Shown here piece after piece: positions 4,440-43,076 of a stretch of 43,462 nucleotides of DNA (the first letter of the stretch is position 1; every line of letters begins with the position of its first letter). Origin of the DNA: a virus; the IMG/VR virus record IMGVR_UViG_3300013126_000069, positions 1 to 43,462 of that record. One strand, given 5' to 3'. Made by a program: the position numbers and the translations under genes. The notes beneath the pieces were generated by a model. The model worked only from the letters and a program-made list of their open reading frames with translations, was not told the origin of the DNA and searched no databases.

Positions 4440-5810
4440 TTATATAACGATTGAAAAATCTCCTGCTGTGTACCACCCTTCAAAAGATTTCATCCAACTT
4501 CCACTAGTATATCTATACTGGACATTGTTTACAATGTTGGTGACAAATTGAACGGTATTACTATTTTCACTATCAAAACTAACTTCCCATTCCATTGTAT
4601 TAGCATTGAATTGAACAATATCGTTAGCATTGGCAACAAGATTACCCCATGCTACAGTGCTATCCCCTGTGCTACCTATACTATCAACTAACAAATATCT
4701 AGCATTTGGCGTTGGACCAGGTAATCCTGCGTTTGGACCAGTGATTTGTGGATTTACTACTCCATCAACTGGTTGTAATGTATTTTGTGGTAATGTATCT
4801 GGATCGACATTATAGATTAATAAACGATCATCCAATGGATCAGGAACGATTGTACCAACTATCTCAGTTTCTAAATAAGGATTTTGTAACCATATTTGAC
4901 TAATGCCAGGTCGCACAGCCCCATATACGTTCAAGAAGCTTGACCAATATAGTGTAGTATTAGGCGGACTAATATTTTCAAGTTGACTATTTGGTGGATT
5001 AAATGGTTGATTTTCAGGTAATACTTGTAATGTATTTCCTAAGTACAATAATTTATAACCGAATGGTGTTATTTTTTGTCTAGTCCCTAATAATAAATCA
5101 TCGTTTTGTGTTGCTGCCAAACTGTTACCTTGAAATATACTAGCAATAATTTTTTCAATAACACCAAGTTTCTTTAGTTTACTACTTGTACTTACCCATA
5201 TGGGCATGTAAAACTTCCAAGTTAGTACATCAATTGGATTACCTGTACCTTGTGGTATCGTTCTACTACTAAAAGTAAGCCCATCTTGATATACAACAGT
5301 TAAACTTGTCCAATCAATAAAGTTATCTGTGCTTTGTATTTCTAAACTAGGATTAAACAATGTTGCTAACTGTTCTAACAATTCTAGTTTTTGATTATAG
5401 TTTGTAGTCCAAAAATCAACAGTTATTCTTAATGTGTAAGGAACTGGCATTAGTCGTTCAATACTAAATGCTTGTCCTTGTATTGTTTCATAAGATGTTG
5501 TATCTTCGTTATATGCTCGTTGTCTTACATTAAGTTTATCAACAAAGAAAGGTTCTTGTGTGCGTTTTTGATCATATTCAAAACCATTGATATAATATGT
5601 AATCATTGGAGCACTTGGCAAACTACTGGCACTATTATTTGCTTGTATAGTGGCAGCTTGTCTACTTTGATCACCATACATAATAGGAACACGTATAAGT
5701 ATGTCATTACCAGCAGGATCTTTCCCTTTGGTTACATACCAATTTGAAAACAGTTTGGCGAACTGGATTAAAAACCTACGTATCTGATTATCATAGAAGA
5801 ACTGTGCCAA
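4440..5810 (-). CDS. 15: Tail sheath stabiliser and completion protein gp15
   Basis: This 456-residue homologue of T4 gp15 is expected to cap the head-proximal end of the contractile tail and join it to the neck. The N-terminus is diagnostic: FFYDNQIRRFLIQFAKLFSNWYV, then ILIRVPIMYGDQSRQAA, matching T4 gp15's FxYNxxxRR...LFSN...FIRVPITY layout. Further family-like segments are a PxxYTLRITVDFWTTNYNQ strand (about residue 125-145) and a WKFYMPIWV segment near residue 205. T4 gp15 is 272 aa, so about 180 extra residues lie at the C-terminus, rich in Asn/Pro and ending in GWYTAGDFSIVI. The start codon is TTG at 5810, supported by alignment of the N-terminus and by an AAAGGG-like ribosome site; no ATG lies nearby upstream in frame. 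A late motif lies 21 bases upstream. Confidence 0.85.
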   Translation of the reverse strand: MAQFFYDNQIRRFLIQFAKLFSNWYVTKGKDPAGNDILIRVPIMYGDQSRQAATIQANNSASSLPSAPMITYYINGFEYDQKRTQEPFFVDKLNVRQRAYNEDTTSYETIQGQAFSIERLMPVPYTLRITVDFWTTNYNQKLELLEQLATLFNPSLEIQSTDNFIDWTSLTVVYQDGLTFSSRTIPQGTGNPIDVLTWKFYMPIWVSTSSKLKKLGVIEKIIASIFQGNSLAATQNDDLLLGTRQKITPFGYKLLYLGNTLQVLPENQPFNPPNSQLENISPPNTTLYWSSFLNVYGAVRPGISQIWLQNPYLETEIVGTIVPDPLDDRLLIYNVDPDTLPQNTLQPVDGVVNPQITGPNAGLPGPTPNARYLLVDSIGSTGDSTVAWGNLVANANDIVQFNANTMEWEVSFDSENSNTVQFVTNIVNNVQYRYTSGSWMKSFEGWYTAGDFSIVI

Positions 5811-5857: not shown

Positions 5858-7576
5858 TTAAGGAGTAGGTGGTAATGGATCAGGTTTCAAATCTAATATA
5901 CTACTGAGTGGTTGTGCTTCGGGAACAAATGTTTGTGTTTGTTGTAAGTATATTTGATTTGGATCATTGATAAACAATGATTTTCTTGATAGATCATTAA
6001 TAGTAAAGCCAGTTTCTGTGCGAACGTTTTCACTAATTCTTACCCACATCACACCATCCCAACGATATAATATTTGTGGCAAGTAATCAATACGCAAGAA
6101 ATAATCACCGACTTGTGGATTTTGTGGGAAGCTTATACCAACACCTGTTGGTAATCCATTTGGTGGTGTATCCGTTCCTGTTAAATAACCAGCACTGTAA
6201 CCAAAACTTCTAGGAGTTGCCCTAGCAATAAATTGGAATCTTGGATCACAATCAGCACGATAATCCATTTGTGGAGTAATTTCAGCGGTGAATCCTGGTG
6301 CTGTTGGGTCTTGATCAGCAGTAGCATATGTGTTATCAGCAGTACCATATGGCCCTGTTATAGCTCCTAATGATTGTACAGCTAATACTTTTTGCCCTTC
6401 AACAGGACCTGAACCTGAGCCAAGTTTATCTGGTGCTAATTCAATGACTTCAAGGTTAGCTTGTACAAACTTATCTAATTGTTCAGACAAATCCATATCA
6501 GCAGTCATGTCCCAAATACTTTGTAATTGTGCCTTGGGTACTTTAATAGCATAACTTGTATTCTTGTACTTAGGATCACGCATAGCAATGACACCACCTG
6601 TCACAGTAGTGCTTGGTGCTCCTGCGCTGCTAGTAATAACACTGATTGGTGGAGCTGGTTGACCTATCTTATCACTTGGTACACCATTACTTTGAAATTC
6701 GCCATATGTAGGGACAACATACAATTTGCTATTGTCGTATCCTGCTTTAGGTACAATACGTTGTGCTTCATTTAACTGTGCGTTATTGACTGCTATATTT
6801 GTATTATAACGTCCTAGTATATCACGTAAGTCTTGATTTGTATCCAATTGCCAATATGTGGTATTAGGTGGGTTAGTTCCAGCAGGGACTTCAATTAAAC
6901 TTATATAATTTTTGTCACCATATGAAATTACGTACCCAGGTGGATATGTTTTATCTTTATCCCAAAGTCCTAAATAGTTATCTTGATTAATTGGTTCATT
7001 TAATATTTGACTAAATTCTTCACTATCAACTAGTGGCTCACATTTAATACGCCATAAGTGTGGGAACCATGTTTGGCTAAAACCTTCACTAGCATAATTA
7101 GCATCAGTAATTTGCATGAAACGTTTAAGTGCTACTGGAATAGTTTCTTTAAGTGGATTGTAATCTAATAGATGCGGCAACTCAATTACATCACCTACCA
7201 TTAATTTGCGACCTACAATATCAATCATGTCATTGTAATGTACTACGATGAAAATAATGTCATTATTTAAAAACAACCCAAACTGACTTAGGTCAAAGTC
7301 TAGGTTTTGTACTTGATAATGCCCACGTAACCTATAAATGCTTGTTTCATATGTCCGATCTCTATTTTCAAGAAATAATAAATCTTGTATATTAATAGGA
7401 TCAAGTTTGTCGTATTGTGGTTGTGTATAATCAACACTGGGTCCTTGATCTGTTGGGCCTAAATACTTATGAATATAAAGGTCAGTGCCCCCTACAGTAA
7501 GTTGTTCAGAAATGGTTCTGTCAAAAAATCGGTAGTCGTTTTGTTTATTGGGACGGAATAGTGATAACTTTGGCAT
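5858..7576 (-). CDS. 14: Neck protein gp14 with inserted glycan-binding-like module
   Basis: This 572-residue protein is recognised as the T4-like gp14 neck/connector protein. The N-terminal KQNDYRFFDRTISEQLTVGG, the GGTDLYIHKYLGP segment (29-41), MVGDVIELPHLLDYNPL (126-142) and EGFSQTWFPHLWRIKCEPLVDS (164-185) follow the aquatic T4-like gp14 pattern. T4 gp14 is only about 256 aa. Residues about 199-249 (NYLGLWDKDKTY, GDKNYISLIEV, TTYWQLDTNQ) look like an inserted chitin/cellulose-binding CBM5/12-like module, and the gp14 core resumes at LRDILGRYN. A long C-terminal part includes a GDYFLRIDYLPQILYRWDG-type strand set near residues 490-525. The start is ATG 7576; the frame stays open further upstream to 8320 but overlaps the opposing gene. 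It lies opposite in strand to gp13 and heads the gp14-gp15-Nudix group. Confidence 0.8.
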   Translation of the reverse strand: MPKLSLFRPNKQNDYRFFDRTISEQLTVGGTDLYIHKYLGPTDQGPSVDYTQPQYDKLDPINIQDLLFLENRDRTYETSIYRLRGHYQVQNLDFDLSQFGLFLNNDIIFIVVHYNDMIDIVGRKLMVGDVIELPHLLDYNPLKETIPVALKRFMQITDANYASEGFSQTWFPHLWRIKCEPLVDSEEFSQILNEPINQDNYLGLWDKDKTYPPGYVISYGDKNYISLIEVPAGTNPPNTTYWQLDTNQDLRDILGRYNTNIAVNNAQLNEAQRIVPKAGYDNSKLYVVPTYGEFQSNGVPSDKIGQPAPPISVITSSAGAPSTTVTGGVIAMRDPKYKNTSYAIKVPKAQLQSIWDMTADMDLSEQLDKFVQANLEVIELAPDKLGSGSGPVEGQKVLAVQSLGAITGPYGTADNTYATADQDPTAPGFTAEITPQMDYRADCDPRFQFIARATPRSFGYSAGYLTGTDTPPNGLPTGVGISFPQNPQVGDYFLRIDYLPQILYRWDGVMWVRISENVRTETGFTINDLSRKSLFINDPNQIYLQQTQTFVPEAQPLSSILDLKPDPLPPTP

Positions 7577-11242: not shown

Positions 11243-14200
11243 ATGGCACTAGTATCTCCAGGCGTAGAAGTAACAATTATTGATCAATCTCAATATCTAC
11301 CCGCAGCTCCAGCAAGCGTCCCTTTCTTTTTAGTAGCAACAGCACAAAATAAAGCTGATCCAACGGCGTTAGGTGTTGCTAGTGCTACAACAGCAGCGAA
11401 CGCCAATAAACTTTACACAGTTACAAGCCAACGTGACCTTGTAACATTATATGGAACTCCATTCTTTTATACTACAGCAGGTGGAACTCCAATTCAAGGA
11501 TATGAATTAAATGAATATGGATTATTAGCAGCATATTCAGCACTTGGTGTTAGTAACCAAGTTTATGTATGTAGAGCAGATGTTGACTTAGCAAGTTTAG
11601 TAGGACAAACAAGTCGTCCAAGCGCAGCTCCAGCCGATCAAACATATTGGTTAGATACAACAAATACAACATGGGGTATCTATGAGTGGAATAGCACTAC
11701 AACATCATTTACAAACAAGATTCCAATTGTTATTAATGATTCAGCAAACTTATCAGGGGCAGCTCCATTAGCAAGTATTGGAGCAGTAAATGACTACGCA
11801 GTTGTAGCGATACCAGATTACGGTAGCCCAACAGCAACAACAGCTCCTGAATATTGGTATAAAAATTCAACTGGCACATGGGTAAGCTTAGGAGGCTATA
11901 GTTGGTTAGAATCATGGCCTGCTGTACAAGGAACAGGAACAGGATCATTAACAGCAAGCGATACATTTACAATTAATGTAAGTGGAAAATACACTGTTAC
12001 AGTAACAGTTCCAGCAGGGCCAAATAACACAGTAGAAGGTGTAGCGCAGGCTATTAATACCTTAAGTTTGCCAGACATTAGTGCAGGTACAGTTGGTCCA
12101 ACTGGTGCGAAAAAACTTATCATTTATTCAACTCAAGTATCAGGTGATCCAACAGAAGTACTTTACATTACATTAGCTAATGGATCTTTTAGTGGTGTTG
12201 CTCCATTAACAACATTAGGTATCACCGCAGGTACATATAATCAGCCTGAAATACAATATGGTACATCAGCAGAACAACCATTATGGTCAGCAAGTCAGAC
12301 AGAACCAAGACCAACAGGTAGTGTTTGGTTAAAAATGGGTTCAGCAGGCACAGGATTTGCTCCAACAATGAGTGTTTATACAACAGCAACAGCAAGTTTT
12401 GTTCCTAAAAATGTTACTGTACAAACAGGTGATTTAACAGCTACATCAAACTTAGACAGTACAGGCGGTCAAGCTATTCCTGCCAATACTGTATATGCTC
12501 AGTATAATTTTAACGGTAACTGGAATCAGGGTCCAATCTATTTTTGGAAACGTGCTGCAGTTGGTCCCACAATAATTACTGGTAATGATACAAGTCCATC
12601 ATTTACAAATGGTCCATATACAGCATCAATTTATGTAAGTGAACCTGGATCATCAGCCTATGACGGCCCATATAGTTTTGCACTAGCAGATAATAGTGAT
12701 GCCCAAGATTTTGTTGATGCTTGGGCAGCAGCAGGTGTTCCATACACAGAAGCATCAGTATTAACGTCAGGCGCTATACAAATTACACATACCGAAGGTG
12801 GTGTAATTATGGTAGATGATCTTGTTGATGGTGTGTCAAGCGATTTAATGGTTGACGCAGGATTTGAAATTGGCGTAACAGATGGTGTTAAGTATGGTGA
12901 TTTCAAGCCATTCGCAGCGGCGTTTGGTGATGATAGTGTAAGCCCAGCAGGTGGAACAGGATTTACGTTAACGATTGATAATGAAAATGGGGTATATGGA
13001 TTCGGCGCTATTACAGCAGCAGGTACAGGTTATAGTGTAAATAATTTAATCACATTTAATGGAACAACATTATTTGGAGCTACTCCTGCTAACAATTTAG
13101 TTGTTAAAGTAATGGGTGTTAATGGTAGCGGTGGTGTAACATCTTATGCTTATATATCAGGCACACCAATTCAAGGATACTGCACACTATTAAGTAATTG
13201 GCAAGAATTTACATACACGCCAAATGAAGGTGCTCCGGTAGCAGATCCAGCGAATAATACTAATTGGTATTATAGCGTTGTTGATGAAGTTGATATCATG
13301 GTAAACACAACAGGTGGCTGGAGTGGATATCGTAATGTTCAATATGATAGCAATGGTTTCCCACTGCCATCAGGAACTCCTGCTACAGATCCAGCTGGTC
13401 CAATAGTTAGCGCAACTGCTCCAACATTACAAAGTGATGATACAGCATTGGTATATGGTGATATTTGGATTGATACAAGTGATTTAGAAAACTATCCAGT
13501 AATTTATCGTTGGCAACAAGTTAGTGGTGTAGATCAATGGGTATTAATTAATAATACAGACCAAACAAGTAGTAGTGGAGTTCTTTTTGCTGATGCACGT
13601 TGGTCTGACGATCAGGATACGATTAATCCAGTAGATGATCCTATTCCAACAATTATTTCATTATTAATCAGTGATAATTTAGATTTGGATGCTCCAGATG
13701 ACACATTATATCCAGTTGGTATGTTGTTGTTTAATACAAGACGTAGTGGATTTAATGTAAAGCAATTTAGAACAAATTACTTTAATTCAACAAGCTTCCC
13801 TGATGAAACGTTGCCTACATTTACTGATACATGGGTAAGTGTAAGTGGATTACAAAGTAATGGTGCTCCATACATGGGACGCCAAGCACAACGTGCTATT
13901 GTAGTTCAAGCGTTACGTTCAAGTATTGATACTAATTTGACAATACGTGATGAAGATACATTCTTTAACATCATTGCATGTCCAAATTATCCTGAGTTAC
14001 AACCAAACATGATTGTATTAAATGCTGATCGTGGTGATACAGGATTTATAGTTGGTGATACTCCAATGAGATTGACTGATAGTGCCACAGCAATTAATGC
14101 TTGGGCAACTAACGCAGCAGGCGCAAGTTCAACAGGTGAATCAGGATTAGTAACAAGAAACACTTTTATGGGACTGTTCTATCCAAGTGGATTAACAAAT

Positions 14201-14827
14201 GATTTATCAGGTAATGAAGTTGTTGTACCACCAAGTCATATGATGGTTCGTACTTTAATTCGTAACGATACAATCGCTTTTCCTTGGTTCGCTCCAGCAG
14301 GAACACGTCGTGGATTAATTGATAATGCATTAAGTATTGGATTTATTAATCCTACAACCGGTGAATATGTTCCTACAAGAACACGAGTTGGAATACGTGA
14401 TGTATTGTATACAAACTTCATTAATCCACTAGTATTCTTTACAGGTAATGGTTTATTAAATTATGGTAACAAGAGCAGCTTTAATAGTCAATCAGCATTG
14501 GATAGAATCAACGTTGCTAGACTTGTAGCTTACTTACGTAGACAATTAACAATTGCTGCTAGACCATTCATTTTTGAACCAAATGATGCGTTTACAAGAG
14601 GTCAAGTCTCAACAGTTATTGAAACATTGTTAAATGATTTAGTAACAAATAGAGGTATCTACGATTATAGCGTAGTGTGTGATGAATCAAATAACACACC
14701 AGCTAGAATTGATAGAAATGAATTATGGGTTGATGTAGCAATACAACCTGTGAAAGCAATTGAGTTTATTTACATCCCTGTAAGAATTTTGAATACAGGT
14801 GAAGCAGTTGCTGGAACAGGAGTATAA
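11243..14827 (+). CDS. 18: Tail sheath protein gp18, enlarged
   Basis: This 1194-residue contractile sheath protein has the family N-terminus MALVSPGVEVTIIDQSQYLP, then a GYELNEYGLLAAYSALG segment (about 87-105) and VYVCRADVDL. The conserved C-terminal domain covers about residues 870-1194: QRAIVVQALRSSIDTN, FFNIIACPNYPEL, MVLNADRGDTGFIVGDTP-like sequence and the closing LWVDVAIQPVKAIEFIYIP, which forms the strand-exchange lattice in T4. T4 gp18 is 659 aa, so roughly 500 residues are extra. They lie mostly in residues ~120-860 as Thr/Ser/Pro-rich beta-domains with short W-containing repeats (TYWLDTTNTTWGIYEW, GSVWLKMGS, DIWIDTSDL). These would protrude on the outside of the sheath, by analogy with T4 domains I-II. 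It is followed by a hairpin terminator and then gp19. Confidence 0.93.
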   Translation: MALVSPGVEVTIIDQSQYLPAAPASVPFFLVATAQNKADPTALGVASATTAANANKLYTVTSQRDLVTLYGTPFFYTTAGGTPIQGYELNEYGLLAAYSALGVSNQVYVCRADVDLASLVGQTSRPSAAPADQTYWLDTTNTTWGIYEWNSTTTSFTNKIPIVINDSANLSGAAPLASIGAVNDYAVVAIPDYGSPTATTAPEYWYKNSTGTWVSLGGYSWLESWPAVQGTGTGSLTASDTFTINVSGKYTVTVTVPAGPNNTVEGVAQAINTLSLPDISAGTVGPTGAKKLIIYSTQVSGDPTEVLYITLANGSFSGVAPLTTLGITAGTYNQPEIQYGTSAEQPLWSASQTEPRPTGSVWLKMGSAGTGFAPTMSVYTTATASFVPKNVTVQTGDLTATSNLDSTGGQAIPANTVYAQYNFNGNWNQGPIYFWKRAAVGPTIITGNDTSPSFTNGPYTASIYVSEPGSSAYDGPYSFALADNSDAQDFVDAWAAAGVPYTEASVLTSGAIQITHTEGGVIMVDDLVDGVSSDLMVDAGFEIGVTDGVKYGDFKPFAAAFGDDSVSPAGGTGFTLTIDNENGVYGFGAITAAGTGYSVNNLITFNGTTLFGATPANNLVVKVMGVNGSGGVTSYAYISGTPIQGYCTLLSNWQEFTYTPNEGAPVADPANNTNWYYSVVDEVDIMVNTTGGWSGYRNVQYDSNGFPLPSGTPATDPAGPIVSATAPTLQSDDTALVYGDIWIDTSDLENYPVIYRWQQVSGVDQWVLINNTDQTSSSGVLFADARWSDDQDTINPVDDPIPTIISLLISDNLDLDAPDDTLYPVGMLLFNTRRSGFNVKQFRTNYFNSTSFPDETLPTFTDTWVSVSGLQSNGAPYMGRQAQRAIVVQALRSSIDTNLTIRDEDTFFNIIACPNYPELQPNMIVLNADRGDTGFIVGDTPMRLTDSATAINAWATNAAGASSTGESGLVTRNTFMGLFYPSGLTNDLSGNEVVVPPSHMMVRTLIRNDTIAFPWFAPAGTRRGLIDNALSIGFINPTTGEYVPTRTRVGIRDVLYTNFINPLVFFTGNGLLNYGNKSSFNSQSALDRINVARLVAYLRRQLTIAARPFIFEPNDAFTRGQVSTVIETLLNDLVTNRGIYDYSVVCDESNNTPARIDRNELWVDVAIQPVKAIEFIYIPVRILNTGEAVAGTGV

Positions 14828-36948: not shown

Positions 36949-37650
36949 ATGTATACAAATTCTATAACTGAGCAGTTTGAGTACCCTAAATACCGTAGTG
37001 CTAGTGAAATTAATAGTGCTATGGCTGGTGTGTATAAAAACATGGGTTTGGCAGTATTAGTTAGTATGTGTGTAAGTTATTTTGTAGGTACAACGCCTGA
37101 ACTATTACAATTCCTTTTTACTGGTATAACTAAGTGGATTGTAATCTTTTTACCTTTGTTAGCAGTAATCGGTATAGGTTTTGCTTTGGCAAGTAATCCA
37201 CCTAAGCCAATCGCAATGGGGTTATTATTAGGATTCGCAGCATTAATGGGTTTAAGTTTTGCTACTATTTTTGCTGTATATCAAATGGGTAGTATTTTCA
37301 CAGCATTTATGAGTGCTGGTATTTTATTTGGAGTTATGAGTTTTTATGGATACTTCACTAAAAAAAGCTTGGATAGTATCGGAAAGTTTATGTTTATTGG
37401 TCTTATCAGTATTGTTCTTGCCAGTATTGTCAACATTTTCATTGGTAGTAGTGTATTCAGCATGGTTATTAGCAGTCTTGCTATCATTATCTTTATGGGA
37501 CTAACTGCTTATGATACTCAAAAAATTCGTGAAATGATTATGGAAAACAATGATAGTGATGTGGAAGTCCAAGGAGCATTGACATTATATCTAGATTTCA
37601 TTAATATATTTCTTTCTTTACTACAACTATTTGGTGACAAAAAAGAATGA
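36949..37650 (+). CDS. Bax inhibitor-1 (TMBIM/YetJ) family membrane protein
   Basis: This 233-residue integral membrane protein has about seven predicted hydrophobic segments (roughly 30-46, 63-82, 87-109, 113-135, 144-166, 168-188 and 209-228). The family signature is AYDTQKIREM (187-196) followed by ALTLYLDFINIFLSLLQLFG (210-229). D189 and D216 fit the pair of aspartates that gate the pH-sensitive calcium leak in bacterial YetJ, by pattern. The N-terminal ~25 residues are cytosolic. Bacterial members are YccA/YbhL/YetJ-like; E. coli YccA modulates the FtsH protease. In a phage it may protect membrane integrity, modulate FtsH-like proteolysis or delay lysis. AAGGAG precedes the ATG and its stop overlaps gp44 (ATGA). 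Confidence 0.85.
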   Translation: MYTNSITEQFEYPKYRSASEINSAMAGVYKNMGLAVLVSMCVSYFVGTTPELLQFLFTGITKWIVIFLPLLAVIGIGFALASNPPKPIAMGLLLGFAALMGLSFATIFAVYQMGSIFTAFMSAGILFGVMSFYGYFTKKSLDSIGKFMFIGLISIVLASIVNIFIGSSVFSMVISSLAIIIFMGLTAYDTQKIREMIMENNDSDVEVQGALTLYLDFINIFLSLLQLFGDKKE

Positions 37651-38591: not shown

Positions 38592-39053
38592 ATGTTTAAA
38601 ACCATTATGTATGTACATAATTACACTATGTATCAAATGGAATATCATGATAGTATTGCTGGACACGGATTGTCAGATGATTTTAGTTTAAGTTATGTAT
38701 TTGTGATTAGCGACACTGATGTAAGTAATGTTTATACTATTGATAATTTATTTGAAGGTAATCCAGGATCGGCAACAGAACCACATTACAAAATCATAGC
38801 TAATGATACCTATTCAGCAAACTTTAGGTTTGAGAAAAAAGACATTACAGAAACAGTTGGACAAGGCACAGTGACATTAACACCCAGTGGATTAACTATT
38901 GATCGTGGTGACTTACCCGAACAAATTATTGCTATGACTGTAAACTATGATGATAAAGAATTTGTACAACATAGTAATGGAAATACTTGTTTTATTCCAT
39001 ATAATATCTTAAATAACAACATAATTTACGTAAGATTTGAGAGCAGAACCTAA
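38592..39053 (+). CDS. Protein of unknown function
   Basis: This 153-residue acidic beta-rich protein (FSLSYVFVISDTDVSNVYTI, IIAMTVNYDDKEFVQHSNGN, a C-terminal NNNIIYVRFESRT strand) has no recognised family, membrane segment or metal motif. It has its own late motif and ribosome site, and its stop overlaps the next start (TAATG). It is presumably a late protein; a minor virion or fibre-accessory role is only a guess. Confidence 0.5.
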   Translation: MFKTIMYVHNYTMYQMEYHDSIAGHGLSDDFSLSYVFVISDTDVSNVYTIDNLFEGNPGSATEPHYKIIANDTYSANFRFEKKDITETVGQGTVTLTPSGLTIDRGDLPEQIIAMTVNYDDKEFVQHSNGNTCFIPYNILNNNIIYVRFESRT

Positions 39054-39325
39054 TGCGATATTTATTAATTACATTTATCCGTAAACCAAACGGGCAAATT
39101 GATGAATTAGTTAGTGTAAGTAAAAAGATTAAACAAACTGACTTACAAAGTTGTAATGTAATTTTAGACTATGCTGAAAATAAGATAATGAAGTGTGTTA
39201 TTGAAGGCAAAAAACAAGACACAGATTGGGTGCGAATGAATACCTATTATAAAAAAGTATATCCAAAATTAATTGAGCAATTGGAAAAAGAAGCTGTTAT
39301 AGATGCCAAGGTTAGTAATGGATGA
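39053..39325 (+). CDS. Small conserved phage protein, unknown
   Basis: This 90-residue protein is translationally coupled to the previous gene by a TAATG overlap. The sequence MRYLLITFIRKPNGQIDELV, then ILDYAENKIMKCVIEGK and TDWVRMNTYYKKVYPKLIEQ is a familiar alpha/beta pattern in T4-like aquatic phages. No function is assigned. It overlaps the oxygenase start by 8 bp. Confidence 0.65.
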   Translation: MRYLLITFIRKPNGQIDELVSVSKKIKQTDLQSCNVILDYAENKIMKCVIEGKKQDTDWVRMNTYYKKVYPKLIEQLEKEAVIDAKVSNG

Positions 39326-40217
39326 GATTGAAGAAAAAAAGTTACGTGAAATCTTAAATAATGAAAAAGTATTCATAGATAGTATTAATTATAGTGACGA
39401 GCCTGTTATTCAGTCAATTGATACATTGAATGGATATTTACTATATAATGTTCCTGAAGATATATTAAAAAAACTAGGAACACAACTTGAGAAAATAAAC
39501 ATATCTAATAATTCAACAAACTATTTAGGTAATTATAATGAAGATAAATCATACACTGCAGGTAATGTAGTTACATTTCAAAATAAAAACTATATATGTG
39601 TTGCTAATACACCTATTAAAAATAAACCAACAGACACTAATTTTTGGCAGTTGGATACCAACCAAAATCCTAAAAATATGGGTAATATACATTATTCATT
39701 AGCAGGACACATTAAGAATCAATATTCCCTTTATTTGGATAAAGAACTAGAAGATTATATTTTCTATCTTTGTAATAAGTACTTTGAAAAATATCCCAAT
39801 TTTGTTTTTAGTATTTTTAAGCATAATGCGATTGAGGAAAATACAAATTTAAATTTAAAAATTTACGCATTATGGGCAAATTTTATGAAAAAACATGAAT
39901 TTAATCCGATTCATTCTCATTCAGGTCGATTAAGTTTTGTTATTTGGTATAAAATTCCTTATTCTATTGAAGATGAAATTAGACATGGGCCATGTAAAAG
40001 AGTGGATGATAGTAACTATACTGCTAATTTTCAATTCGTACATCCAGCAACTGATGAATCAGGGATAGGATTTACTAATCTTAGAGTAGACAAGGCTTAT
40101 GAAGGTAAAATTATTTTGTTCCCCTCCTACTTATGTCATACTGTTTATCCATTTTATACTTCAGATGAATATAGAGTTAGTGTAGCAGGTAATATAAAAT
40201 ATGTAAACGGGGCATAA
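39318..40217 (+). CDS. 2OG-Fe(II) oxygenase-like protein with inserted binding module
   Basis: This 299-residue protein has a C-terminal half of the phage 2OG-Fe(II) oxygenase type. The His-rich HSHSG (199-203) precedes LSFVIWYKIP; the distal iron-binding His is H274 in FPSYLCHTVYPF and the 2OG-binding Arg is about R286 in EYRVSVAGNIKY. Which of H199/H201 is the first ligand, and its acidic partner, is not clear. Residues about 69-114 (NYLGNYNEDKSYTAGN, KNYICVANT, FWQLDTNQ) are a CBM5/12-like module closely similar to that inserted in gp14. It interrupts the usual N-terminal region. The enzyme probably hydroxylates a protein or small molecule, substrate unknown. ATG 39318 has AAGG upstream; ATG 39303 is an alternative adding five residues. 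It converges on PhoH through a hairpin. Confidence 0.75.
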   Translation: MDEIEEKKLREILNNEKVFIDSINYSDEPVIQSIDTLNGYLLYNVPEDILKKLGTQLEKINISNNSTNYLGNYNEDKSYTAGNVVTFQNKNYICVANTPIKNKPTDTNFWQLDTNQNPKNMGNIHYSLAGHIKNQYSLYLDKELEDYIFYLCNKYFEKYPNFVFSIFKHNAIEENTNLNLKIYALWANFMKKHEFNPIHSHSGRLSFVIWYKIPYSIEDEIRHGPCKRVDDSNYTANFQFVHPATDESGIGFTNLRVDKAYEGKIILFPSYLCHTVYPFYTSDEYRVSVAGNIKYVNGA

Positions 40218-40226
40218 CCCCGTTTA
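40204..40226. terminator. Bidirectional hairpin between oxygenase and PhoH
   Basis: A 9-bp stem (TAAACGGGG/CCCCGTTTA) has a CATAA loop that contains the oxygenase stop codon. It ends 4 bases before the PhoH stop on the other strand. No long T-run follows. It is very similar in style to the hairpin at 4009-4031. Confidence 0.65.
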
Positions 40227-40229
40227 GTA

Positions 40230-41009
40230 TCAGCCGTAAAGTTTTAGTACATGTTCAATTATAGTATGTCTTTTAATATCAGAACTGTCAAATTGACAGC
40301 TTGCCATACCAGGAACACTACGTGCTTGTAACTTATGTACCAAATCTAATAAGCCATTTTGTGCTATACGTCTATCTGTTTGCTCAATATCTCCTGTAAT
40401 AACAATTTTACTATCAAAACCAATCCTTGTTAATAACATTTTGTATTGACTAGGAGTAGCGTTTTGGCCTTCATCTAAGATAATCCAACTATTCTTAAAT
40501 GTACGACCTCTACAAAATGCCAATGGAGTAATTTCAATAATTTGTTCTTCAAACATGTGTTTAATATCTTTTGAGCTATAATACTCACGTAGTATATCAA
40601 GCAATGGTCTTACCCATGGTTCCATTTTTTCATGTAGATCGCCAGGTAAAAACCCATGTTTTTCATCATCAACTGTGACTGCTGGTCTGGTAAGGACAAT
40701 TTTATCACAATTCCGTTCTCTCAATTGCTTTATAGCAATAAGCATAGCCAAGTAAGTTTTACCAGTGCCCGCAGGTCCTGATACGACCACTATATCCTTT
40801 TCTGGGTCGTTTAAATAGTCTAGGTAAACTTGTTGATTATCGCTTAATGCGTTTACAGTAACAGGTCGTCTATTGTTAACATTATAGTTTGCTACGTTGA
40901 AATCTATGGTTTTAGATTCATTCATATAGAACGTATTACTTTCATTGAGTTGTTGAATGTTGCTTCTAGTGTCTTTACTACGTAATGCTCCAGTCTTTCT
41001 TTTACTCAA
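40230..41009 (-). CDS. phoH: PhoH-like ATPase
   Basis: This 259-residue protein has Walker A GPAGTGKT at 78-85, a KIVLTRPAV...GFLPGDLHEKMEPWVRP segment (103-135) typical of PhoH, Walker B IILDEGQN at 176-183 and TGD at 205-207. PhoH proteins are P-loop ATPases linked to helicase/ribonuclease-type activity. They are very common in aquatic phages, not only phosphate-responsive ones. The start is read as TTG 41009, supported by AGGGAG about 7 bases upstream and by the basic N-terminus SKRKTGALRSKDTR. The frame remains open to 41393, but the upstream part lies across the promoter region and the opposing gene and contains no PhoH sequence. It is the only minus-strand gene in its neighbourhood. Confidence 0.88.
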   Translation of the reverse strand: MSKRKTGALRSKDTRSNIQQLNESNTFYMNESKTIDFNVANYNVNNRRPVTVNALSDNQQVYLDYLNDPEKDIVVVSGPAGTGKTYLAMLIAIKQLRERNCDKIVLTRPAVTVDDEKHGFLPGDLHEKMEPWVRPLLDILREYYSSKDIKHMFEEQIIEITPLAFCRGRTFKNSWIILDEGQNATPSQYKMLLTRIGFDSKIVITGDIEQTDRRIAQNGLLDLVHKLQARSVPGMASCQFDSSDIKRHTIIEHVLKLYG

Positions 41010-41033
41010 ATTTATTCTCCCTTGTTTTGGATC

Positions 41034-41049
41034 TGAGATATTAATCTCA
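41034..41049 (-). repeat. Inverted repeat in the phoH leader
   Basis: TGAGAT and ATCTCA form a perfect 6-bp inverted repeat with a 4-base spacer, 25 bases upstream of the phoH TTG start. It could be an operator or mRNA hairpin. A TATAAT hexamer on the minus strand at 41089-41094 may be the -10 element; no good -35 is visible. Confidence 0.35.
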
Positions 41050-41107
41050 AATTTATTTAAGGAAAAACAATTAATAAATGTTATACACATTATAAGTAAA
41101 GATAATA

Positions 41108-41115
41108 GATAAATA
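41108..41115 (+). promoter_or_regulatory. T4-type late promoter motif (GATAAATA)
   Basis: GATAAATA lies 18 bases before the ATG at 41134, with AGAGGAA in the leader. It starts the pair of beta-helix genes, divergent from phoH. Confidence 0.65.
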
Positions 41116-41133
41116 TTAAGCTCAGAGGAAAGA

Positions 41134-42093
41134 ATGAACAACGTAAAAGATTTTGGTGCTGTAGGCAATGGTAGTACCGATGATACAACATCTATTCGTG
41201 ATGCTATAGCATATACTAAAGCACAAGGCGGTGGACAAATATATTTTCCACCTGGAGTATACAAAGTAACTGATACAATTACAATTGATAGCGCAGTAGG
41301 TGTGGTTGGCGCAGGGTCTAATTGTTTGAGTATTGAAGAAAATGGAACATATAGTAATGTTACTTCTGTGATAGCATGGTATGGCACCAGCACTGTATTA
41401 TTTGATTATGTTGGTCGTATGGATGGAGTAGTATTTTCTAATATAGCGTTGGACGGTAGAAACGTTGGGACCATAGCAATACGTTTAGATAGAGTTCGTA
41501 ATAGTTATTTTCAAAGTATACAAATACATAGATTTACACAATTTGGTGTTGATATGAATCCCCAACCACAAGCAGGAGTAACTAATGACAACTGTATGTT
41601 TAACAACTTTCAATCATTGGTTATTTGGGCAGCACAAGTTGAGGGCTCAAGTTGTTTAAGATTAGATGGCAACGCACTAGATAAAAATAATATTAGTGCG
41701 GGAGCTGGTAACACTTGTCACAATACATTTACTAATACGCAACTTTGGACTGTAATGAAAAATTACAATTTACAAATGTTAGATTGCGATAACAATAATT
41801 TTACAATGCTATATTGTTTTAGAACAGATTTAACCACTAAACACATATATTTTGGTTATAACCCTGATTATTATAATCAAACATTATATCCAGGTCATGG
41901 AGTATGTCGTAGTAATTATTTTTACCATACACAGGGATCAGTATATGCTACAGCAGGGCCTGACAAGACCGCGCCTGAAATGAAGAATTATGTATATGGA
42001 TACGATACAGCTAATGGTCAAAAACTTCCTGTTACTATTAACAATTCTAAAGTGGTTGTTGTCTTATTAGATACATCTATAAATACTTTATAA
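41134..42093 (+). CDS. Pectate-lyase-like beta-helix protein, copy 1
   Basis: This 319-residue protein opens with the pectate lyase 3 / GH28-type N-terminal pattern: NVKDFGAVGNGSTDDTTSI, then AIAYTKAQGGGQIYFPPGVY and a KVTDTITID strand. Repeated short strands with NN-type turns follow (NNFQSLVIW, CDNNNFTMLY), as in right-handed beta-helices. This fold is used in phage tailspikes that bind or cleave surface polysaccharide. There is no head-binding domain and no signal peptide, so it could attach through another protein or act as a decoration. The active residues cannot be assigned. It is paralogous to the next gene over its whole length. Confidence 0.75.
   Translation: MNNVKDFGAVGNGSTDDTTSIRDAIAYTKAQGGGQIYFPPGVYKVTDTITIDSAVGVVGAGSNCLSIEENGTYSNVTSVIAWYGTSTVLFDYVGRMDGVVFSNIALDGRNVGTIAIRLDRVRNSYFQSIQIHRFTQFGVDMNPQPQAGVTNDNCMFNNFQSLVIWAAQVEGSSCLRLDGNALDKNNISAGAGNTCHNTFTNTQLWTVMKNYNLQMLDCDNNNFTMLYCFRTDLTTKHIYFGYNPDYYNQTLYPGHGVCRSNYFYHTQGSVYATAGPDKTAPEMKNYVYGYDTANGQKLPVTINNSKVVVVLLDTSINTL
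42078..42085 (+). promoter_or_regulatory. T4 late promoter consensus (TATAAATA)
   Basis: A perfect octamer lies within the last codons of the first beta-helix gene, 19 bases before the GTG start of the second. The two copies can therefore be expressed independently. Confidence 0.6.
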
Positions 42094-42104
42094 GGGGTAA
42101 TATT

Positions 42105-43076
42105 GTGAATAATGTAAAAGATTACGGAGCAGTAGGTGATGGCATACATGATGACACATTAGCCATTAAAGAAGCTATTTTAGCTACAAAAGAACAAGGT
42201 GGTGGACAAATTTATTTCCCACCTGGGGTTTATGTTGTCACTGATACACTAACTATTGATGGTCCAGTTGGTTTCGTAGGTGCTACAAGTAATAGTCTAA
42301 GCTTACAATTAAACGGTAACTATGATAATGTAGGCACAGTATTAGCATGGTATGGTCCAAATAAAATAATGATTGATTATGTAGGACGTATTGATAATGT
42401 TGTGTTTATGGATATTGCTATTGATGGTCGTAATGGAAGCACAGTAGGACTACGAATTGATAGATTACGTCATAGCTATTTTAGATGTGTTCAACTAGCA
42501 AGATTTACACAGTTTGGAATAGACATTACTCCAAGACCCGAAACAAACTTTATGAACGATAATGCCATGTTTAATCACTTCCAATCAACGACAATTTGGA
42601 ATGATTTAGAAGGTAGTAGTTGTTTACGATTAGATGGCACAGTAATTGATAAAAACAATATTAATGCTGGTGCTGGAAATGCTTGTCATAATACATTTAC
42701 GAATACACACTTATGGGTAAAAAATAACTGGAATGTTGAATTCTTAGATTGTGATAACAATAGTTTTTACATGTTATATTGTTTTAAAGTTGATAACAAA
42801 ACCAGTCAAATATACTTTGGATATAATCAAAATACATACAATGCTAGTTATATTCCACGACATGGATGTGCTAGAAGTAATTACATTTATCATTGTCAAG
42901 GGTCAATTTATGCTAGCGCAGGTCCAACAAGTAAATCGCCAGAGTGTAAAAACTATATTTTTGGATATGACAGAGAAAATGGACAACCATTACCAATCAC
43001 CAATAACAACGCAAAAGTTATATTAGTAGGCGAAGAATGTAGTAAAACTTCAGTTTTTAGTAAATTATTTAAGTAG
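42105..43076 (+). CDS. Pectate-lyase-like beta-helix protein, copy 2
   Basis: This 323-residue tandem paralogue of the preceding gene starts at GTG 42105, with AAGGGG 7 bases upstream. It shares the N-terminus (NNVKDYGAVGDGIHDDTLAI, QGGGQIYFPPGVYVVTDTL), then AWYG, IDGRNGSTVGLRIDRLRHSY, the GSSCLRLDG segment and the HNTFTNTHLW/CDNNSFYMLYCF region. Surface-loop segments differ more than the core strands, which suggests diversification of a binding or cleavage specificity. Several cysteines (SSCLRLDG, NACHN, LDCDNN, YCF) are conserved in both copies. The role is inferred as tailspike or glycan-targeting structural protein. Confidence 0.75.
   Translation: MNNVKDYGAVGDGIHDDTLAIKEAILATKEQGGGQIYFPPGVYVVTDTLTIDGPVGFVGATSNSLSLQLNGNYDNVGTVLAWYGPNKIMIDYVGRIDNVVFMDIAIDGRNGSTVGLRIDRLRHSYFRCVQLARFTQFGIDITPRPETNFMNDNAMFNHFQSTTIWNDLEGSSCLRLDGTVIDKNNINAGAGNACHNTFTNTHLWVKNNWNVEFLDCDNNSFYMLYCFKVDNKTSQIYFGYNQNTYNASYIPRHGCARSNYIYHCQGSIYASAGPTSKSPECKNYIFGYDRENGQPLPITNNNAKVILVGEECSKTSVFSKLFK

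Follow-up and report, generated by a model that had tools for sequence, protein, structure and literature searches.

The window, that is, the whole stretch of DNA analysed here, is the record of an uncultured virus and comprises 43,462 bases. Two modules of the CBM5/12 type were found in it, one within a neck-region virion protein at the gp14 position and the other within a 2OG-Fe(II) oxygenase (Table 1), and no third copy was detected when all six frames were scanned with an HMM. The two segments can be aligned without gaps and share 23 of 49 residues, while their DNA agrees at 95 of 147 nucleotides (65%). A BLASTP comparison of the full gp14 and oxygenase proteins gave an E value of 1e-13 (42% identity over 57 aa), their local score of 146 was far above the best among 1000 shuffles (62), and an HMM built from gp14 modules only, with the oxygenase left out, recovered the oxygenase copy with 49 bits (E 5e-15). 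On these sequence comparisons the two segments are homologous, as the first-pass annotation had proposed. Its placement of the gp14 module was correct; for the oxygenase, its DNA coordinates were right to within a codon, but the residues it gave (69-114) were displaced from the actual 73-121.

A further, degenerate copy had been suggested for the PPNTT-YW stretch of gp15. However, this is a nine-residue match whose score was reached by 37 of 500 shuffles, and the six-frame scan revealed no module around it; the likeness is therefore ascribed to chance. The observation of two copies is itself sound: a known type of module occupies an unusual second place.

Table 1. Features of the window related to the two CBM5/12-type modules
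Feature	Position	Strand	Details
gp15 tail sheath stabiliser	4440..5810	-	PF16724; PPNTT-YW stretch at about 4944-4970
gp14-position neck-region virion protein	5861..7576	-	572 aa; PHROG 11591, E 1.7e-79; gp15 (PF16724) adjoining
gp14 continuation past module	5861..6832	-	Residues 249-572; from alignment
CBM5/12-type module in gp14	6833..6979	-	Residues 200-248
gp14 N-terminal core	6983..7576	-	Residues 1-198; common to jumbo-phage relatives
Conserved 90-aa gene, slot border	39053..39325	+	61-68% identical in four relatives
2OG-Fe(II) oxygenase with CBM5/12-type insert	39303..40217	+	304 aa; PF13759, PHROG 81
Oxygenase core, part 1	39432..39518	+	Residues 44-72; strand and helix alpha-1; homologue-only HMM domain 1
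CBM5/12-type module in oxygenase	39519..39665	+	Residues 73-121; PF02839, pLDDT about 76-94
Oxygenase core, part 2	39666..40214	+	Residues 122-304; homologue-only HMM domain 2, 201 bits
PhoH, convergent, other slot border	40230..41393	-	PHROG 170; synteny

Insertion of the module into gp14

The true start of gp14 lies at 7576, inside a longer mechanical ORF. The name is positional and is based on the place of the gene beside gp15 and on a homologue, CBB_234, that was detected in virions by mass spectrometry with 12 peptides (PMC5259590). In Pfam searches the T4 gp14 profile (PF11649) matched neither the window protein nor its relatives, and an hhalign comparison of the window protein with T4 gp14 returned a probability of 0.3%.

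Among the loci fetched, the module was present in 175 ORFs with the gp14 core, which is a count of ORFs rather than of phages, as some loci overlap. The core was found without the module in Atu_ph07, Phosso, SCTP-2, XaC1 and the loci L178 and L189, a list from which two short, broken- or truncated-looking ORFs were left out, and the alignment indicated that the CBB homologue likewise lacks it. In the L178 protein, which is 45% identical to gp14, the flanks are joined as ILDLPVSE-TSDTTLRDVLSTYE, and the same site in the window reads ILNEPIN-module-DLRDILGRYN. The core thus resumes past the module, and, judged from these alignments, the gp14 module is a true insertion that more distant relatives lack at the same site. 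The AlphaFold model of gp14 was poor (mean pLDDT 34) and confident in the module alone (pLDDT about 66-86). A second large stretch of gp14, residues about 290-465 (6000-6700, minus strand), is also present in the clade and, in Atu_ph07, Phosso and L178, is either shorter or absent.

Insertion of the module into the oxygenase

The oxygenase matched PF13759 with 43.8 bits (cut-off 27) and PHROG 81 with an E value of 1.5e-25, and the core of its predicted structure matched 2OG oxygenases (Z 15.3 to 3bvc). The HxH motif, the distal His and the Arg are invariant in 71 homologues and correspond here to H204, H206, H279 and R291. The profile of these homologues is split on the window protein: its first part starts at residue 44 and runs on through helix 1, its second covers 119-300, and the module lies between them. 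The insertion site comes after helix 1 and ahead of the LAG motif, in a part whose length varies among homologues; the module is predicted with confidence, and the linker behind it (residues 122-134) with low confidence.

The module was absent from all of the approximately 90 oxygenase homologues examined, and it appears from these comparisons to be a true insertion in the enzyme as well, in agreement with the earlier proposal that in each protein it interrupts a core that continues afterwards. The window enzyme resembles the PHROG 81/PF13759 phage oxygenases (cyanophage T4-GC 180) in its core and in the conserved His and Arg, but differs from them in carrying the module. A direct search of IMG/VR yielded no close relatives of the oxygenase, a search with the module profile returned gp14 copies and no oxygenase, and a structural search started from the oxygenase model gave a list occupied by oxygenases, which matched the core rather than the module. 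The open-access literature that we searched yielded no report of a CBM in a phage oxygenase, which does not prove that none exists. No oxygenase homologue with the module emerged from these searches, so that conservation of this form of the enzyme is not demonstrable. Two apparently longer oxygenases, in loci L153 and L162, were set aside, as their extra length is read-through into an overlapping upstream gene.

Fold family and ligand-binding positions of the modules

The oxygenase segment alone matched Pfam CBM_5_12 (PF02839) with 27.6 bits, above the curated cut-off of 26.2; scored within the whole protein the module reached 23.4 bits and the gp14 segment alone 12.2 bits, both under that cut-off. 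When a profile built from 25 modules, drawn from both kinds, was searched against the PDB, it matched two tail fibres, that of F2 pyocin (E 4e-7) and one of a phage (3e-4), as well as the chitin-binding domain of chitinase A1 (1ed7, E 8e-4). The module region of the gp14 model was matched by Foldseek to 2d49 (TM 0.69, rmsd 1.2) and 1ed7 (TM 0.70), scores that are normalised by the small targets, and by VIA to chitinase and fibre structures with Z 5.1-7.7 over 41-57 residues. It also resembles modules of tail fibres and of cap and baseplate proteins of contractile injection systems (7b5i, 7b5h). The Pfam matches, the PDB profile search and the structural comparison of the gp14 model together place both segments in the CBM5/12 fold family. 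The resemblance to CBM5/12 noted in the first-pass annotation is thus confirmed, and the two segments are not unrelated folds.

The closest PDB relatives in both sequence and fold are modules of the F2-pyocin fibre (25vf; sequence match VPAKTAPPNAAYW), phage 7-7-1 (9rkv), Milano (8fqc) and A-1(L) (8kec). These are carried by fibres or spikes, whereas the window copies reside in a neck-region protein and an enzyme. With the domains of chitinase A1 (1ed7) and ChiC (2d49), the phage modules share the profile match, the small beta-fold and the frame Y..G..V.y....Y.....P....W, but the two differ on the binding face, which in the chitinase domains bears aromatic residues. In all 98 distinct phage modules, columns 28, 29 and 35 were non-aromatic. 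Column 35, which was placed on the chitinase A1 position through the 1ed7 alignment, is presumably equivalent to W687, and columns 28-29 are taken here to be the WW pair of CBM5. W687 of chitinase A1 and the CBM5 WW pair are exposed aromatic residues that bind chitin or cellulose. As these canonical aromatics are gone in 98 of 98 modules, classical binding of chitin or cellulose is not expected, and the glycan binding previously suggested is unproven. Carbohydrate binding may have been lost in these modules, and it is possible that they bind another ligand.

Distribution of the module in phages

In isolated phages, such modules occur mainly in tail fibres and tail-tip proteins. In a relative (G001, 267 kb), a fibre-like ORF of 1450 aa (L203 576-4925) opens with about eight copies in tandem, and a further copy lies in a 6268-aa ORF. 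The module is therefore a common part of phage virions, and its presence in two proteins is by itself no proof of movement between them.

Similarly, some neck and tail proteins of the lactococcal 936 phages (neck passage structure, evolved Dit and TpeX) have acquired CBMs, which were found by experiment to bind host cells (PMC6669499). Those CBMs, however, have other folds (e.g., BppA-like) and belong to virion proteins, not to a metabolic-type enzyme (PMC6669499). By contrast, in cyanophage A-1(L) the CBM on the neck fibre showed no binding to the host (PMC10966104).

Genomic context of the oxygenase

The oxygenase gene lies two genes downstream of a clamp-loader gene, between the 90-aa gene and the convergent phoH. 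The corresponding slot (39325-40230) is empty in three relatives (G001, G003 and G012) and is occupied in another (G007) by an unrelated 297-aa gene. Hence, the oxygenase is an accessory gene that was, most simply, gained. The slot has the appearance of a hotspot for accessory genes. Directly before the clamp-loader gene, at 36949-37650 (plus strand), is a gene for a membrane protein of the Bax inhibitor-1 family (PF01027, 181 bits), which had no match near the clamp-loader gene in the four relatives compared.

The cyanophage homologues of the oxygenase are likewise close to replication genes, being located beside regA, gp62 or gp43. In L178, an oxygenase homologue directly follows gp14-gp15-NUDIX in one same-strand cluster (L178 1828-5525), from which a link of such homologues to late genes is possible. 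Locus L147 (1261-2736) encodes a 492-aa ORF with a glycosyltransferase domain N-terminal to a 2OG oxygenase homologue, a fusion that offers a weak hint of glycan chemistry.

Origin and possible roles of the two modules

The explanation that we favour, and which we consider about as likely to be right as wrong, is that a known adhesion or docking module of virions was recruited twice, probably independently, one copy having become fixed in a phage clade and the other being private to an accessory enzyme. The CBM5/12-type module is a small autonomous beta-fold, widely used in phage tail fibres and spikes, and would have lodged in a loop of each of the two proteins, which are unrelated. In gp14 it would have decorated the neck region for a long time and become fixed in a single clade of jumbo phages, where several copies per virion would provide weak multivalent contact with a ligand on the host surface or the virion. 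In the oxygenase it would most likely tether the enzyme, inside the infected cell, to a substrate that may be glycan-bearing or may be a phage or host protein. For both modules, these binding and tethering roles are ones that we infer.

An alternative hypothesis, in line with the first-pass annotation, is that the oxygenase acquired its module as a copy of the one in gp14, made within the phage, with both proteins docking on the same ligand and the enzyme being virion-associated or surface-acting. The oxygenase copy and the window's own gp14 have the ends NYLG and WQLDTNQ in common, which hints at a closer kinship than independent recruitment implies, although some fibre modules also begin with NFLG. 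In addition, the gp14-only HMM gave the oxygenase copy its 49 bits, compared with about 27 for the fibre modules of a relative under a closely similar HMM, and the L178 cluster shows an oxygenase homologue next to gp14 in a related lineage. However, the DNA identity of the two copies is just 65%, and canonical CBM5/12 fits the oxygenase copy better than that of gp14. In the tree, the gp14 copies formed one clade (support 0.87) from which the oxygenase copy was excluded, and an AU test rejected, at p 0.016, the nesting of the oxygenase copy among the gp14 modules with an LDTNQ end, to which the window's own belongs, but did not reject a clade of gp14 and oxygenase modules (0.069); the tree and the test are based on about 49 columns and shallow constrained searches, with module ends missing in most outgroups and fewer resamplings in the AU test than advised. 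These analyses lend no support to movement between the neck protein and the enzyme. Action at the surface or in the virion is further weakened by the position of this accessory gene near the clamp-loader gene, by the replication-gene neighbours of the cyanophage homologues and by the start of the oxygenase, where no obvious secretion signal was seen by eye. Independent recruitment is thus somewhat more likely than copying, short of firm proof, and the hypothesis of copying as a whole, shared ligand and virion or surface location included, is unlikely.

It is also conceivable, if rather doubtful, that the oxygenase insert is a tolerated and functionally neutral passenger and that the enzyme works like its module-free homologues. 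Such an interpretation would agree with the many homologues that do without the module, with a site of variable length followed by a low-confidence linker, and with the fact that a module-bearing oxygenase is known from this sequence only. On the other hand, although the insert has diverged by about 50% from the gp14 copies, its frame, its module-defining residues and its confidently predicted fold are all intact, which suggests maintained selection; selection is, however, not measurable on a single copy. A purely structural role, in which the module of gp14 packs onto adjacent subunits of the neck and keeps the loop stable, with no external ligand, could account for the loss of the canonical ligand aromatics while other residues are nearly invariant, and similar folds do occur in the cap and baseplate proteins 7b5i and 7b5h; as it leaves the presence of the module in an unrelated enzyme unexplained, and several gp14 relatives do without the module, we regard it as improbable.

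Returning to recruitment of a virion docking module, the module family is already known, its occurrence inside an enzyme is unusual, and the putative docking of the enzyme through it is plausible. A more specific version, in which the virion-type module brings the oxygenase to structural proteins of the phage or to glycans at the surface, which the enzyme then oxidises, seems quite unlikely; if true, a phage enzyme would be aimed by the same type of module as the adhesion apparatus of the phage. A few adhesion modules are used again and again in phage virion proteins, and a clean case of one in a metabolic-type enzyme would extend this traffic beyond the virion. Such a case would also offer a way towards the substrate of the PHROG 81 oxygenases, which are widespread in phages. 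Finally, it may be asked what ligand this CBM subfamily has, given that the gp14 insert lacks the known ligand residues and is nevertheless fixed in a jumbo-phage clade that is abundant.

Other virion proteins encoded in the window

Two further observations concern virion-type proteins of the window. The tail sheath protein (11243-14827, plus strand) is of unusual length, with 1194 aa, and two adjacent genes on the same strand, at 41134-42093 and 42105-43076, encode pectate-lyase-like (PF12708) proteins of the spike type.
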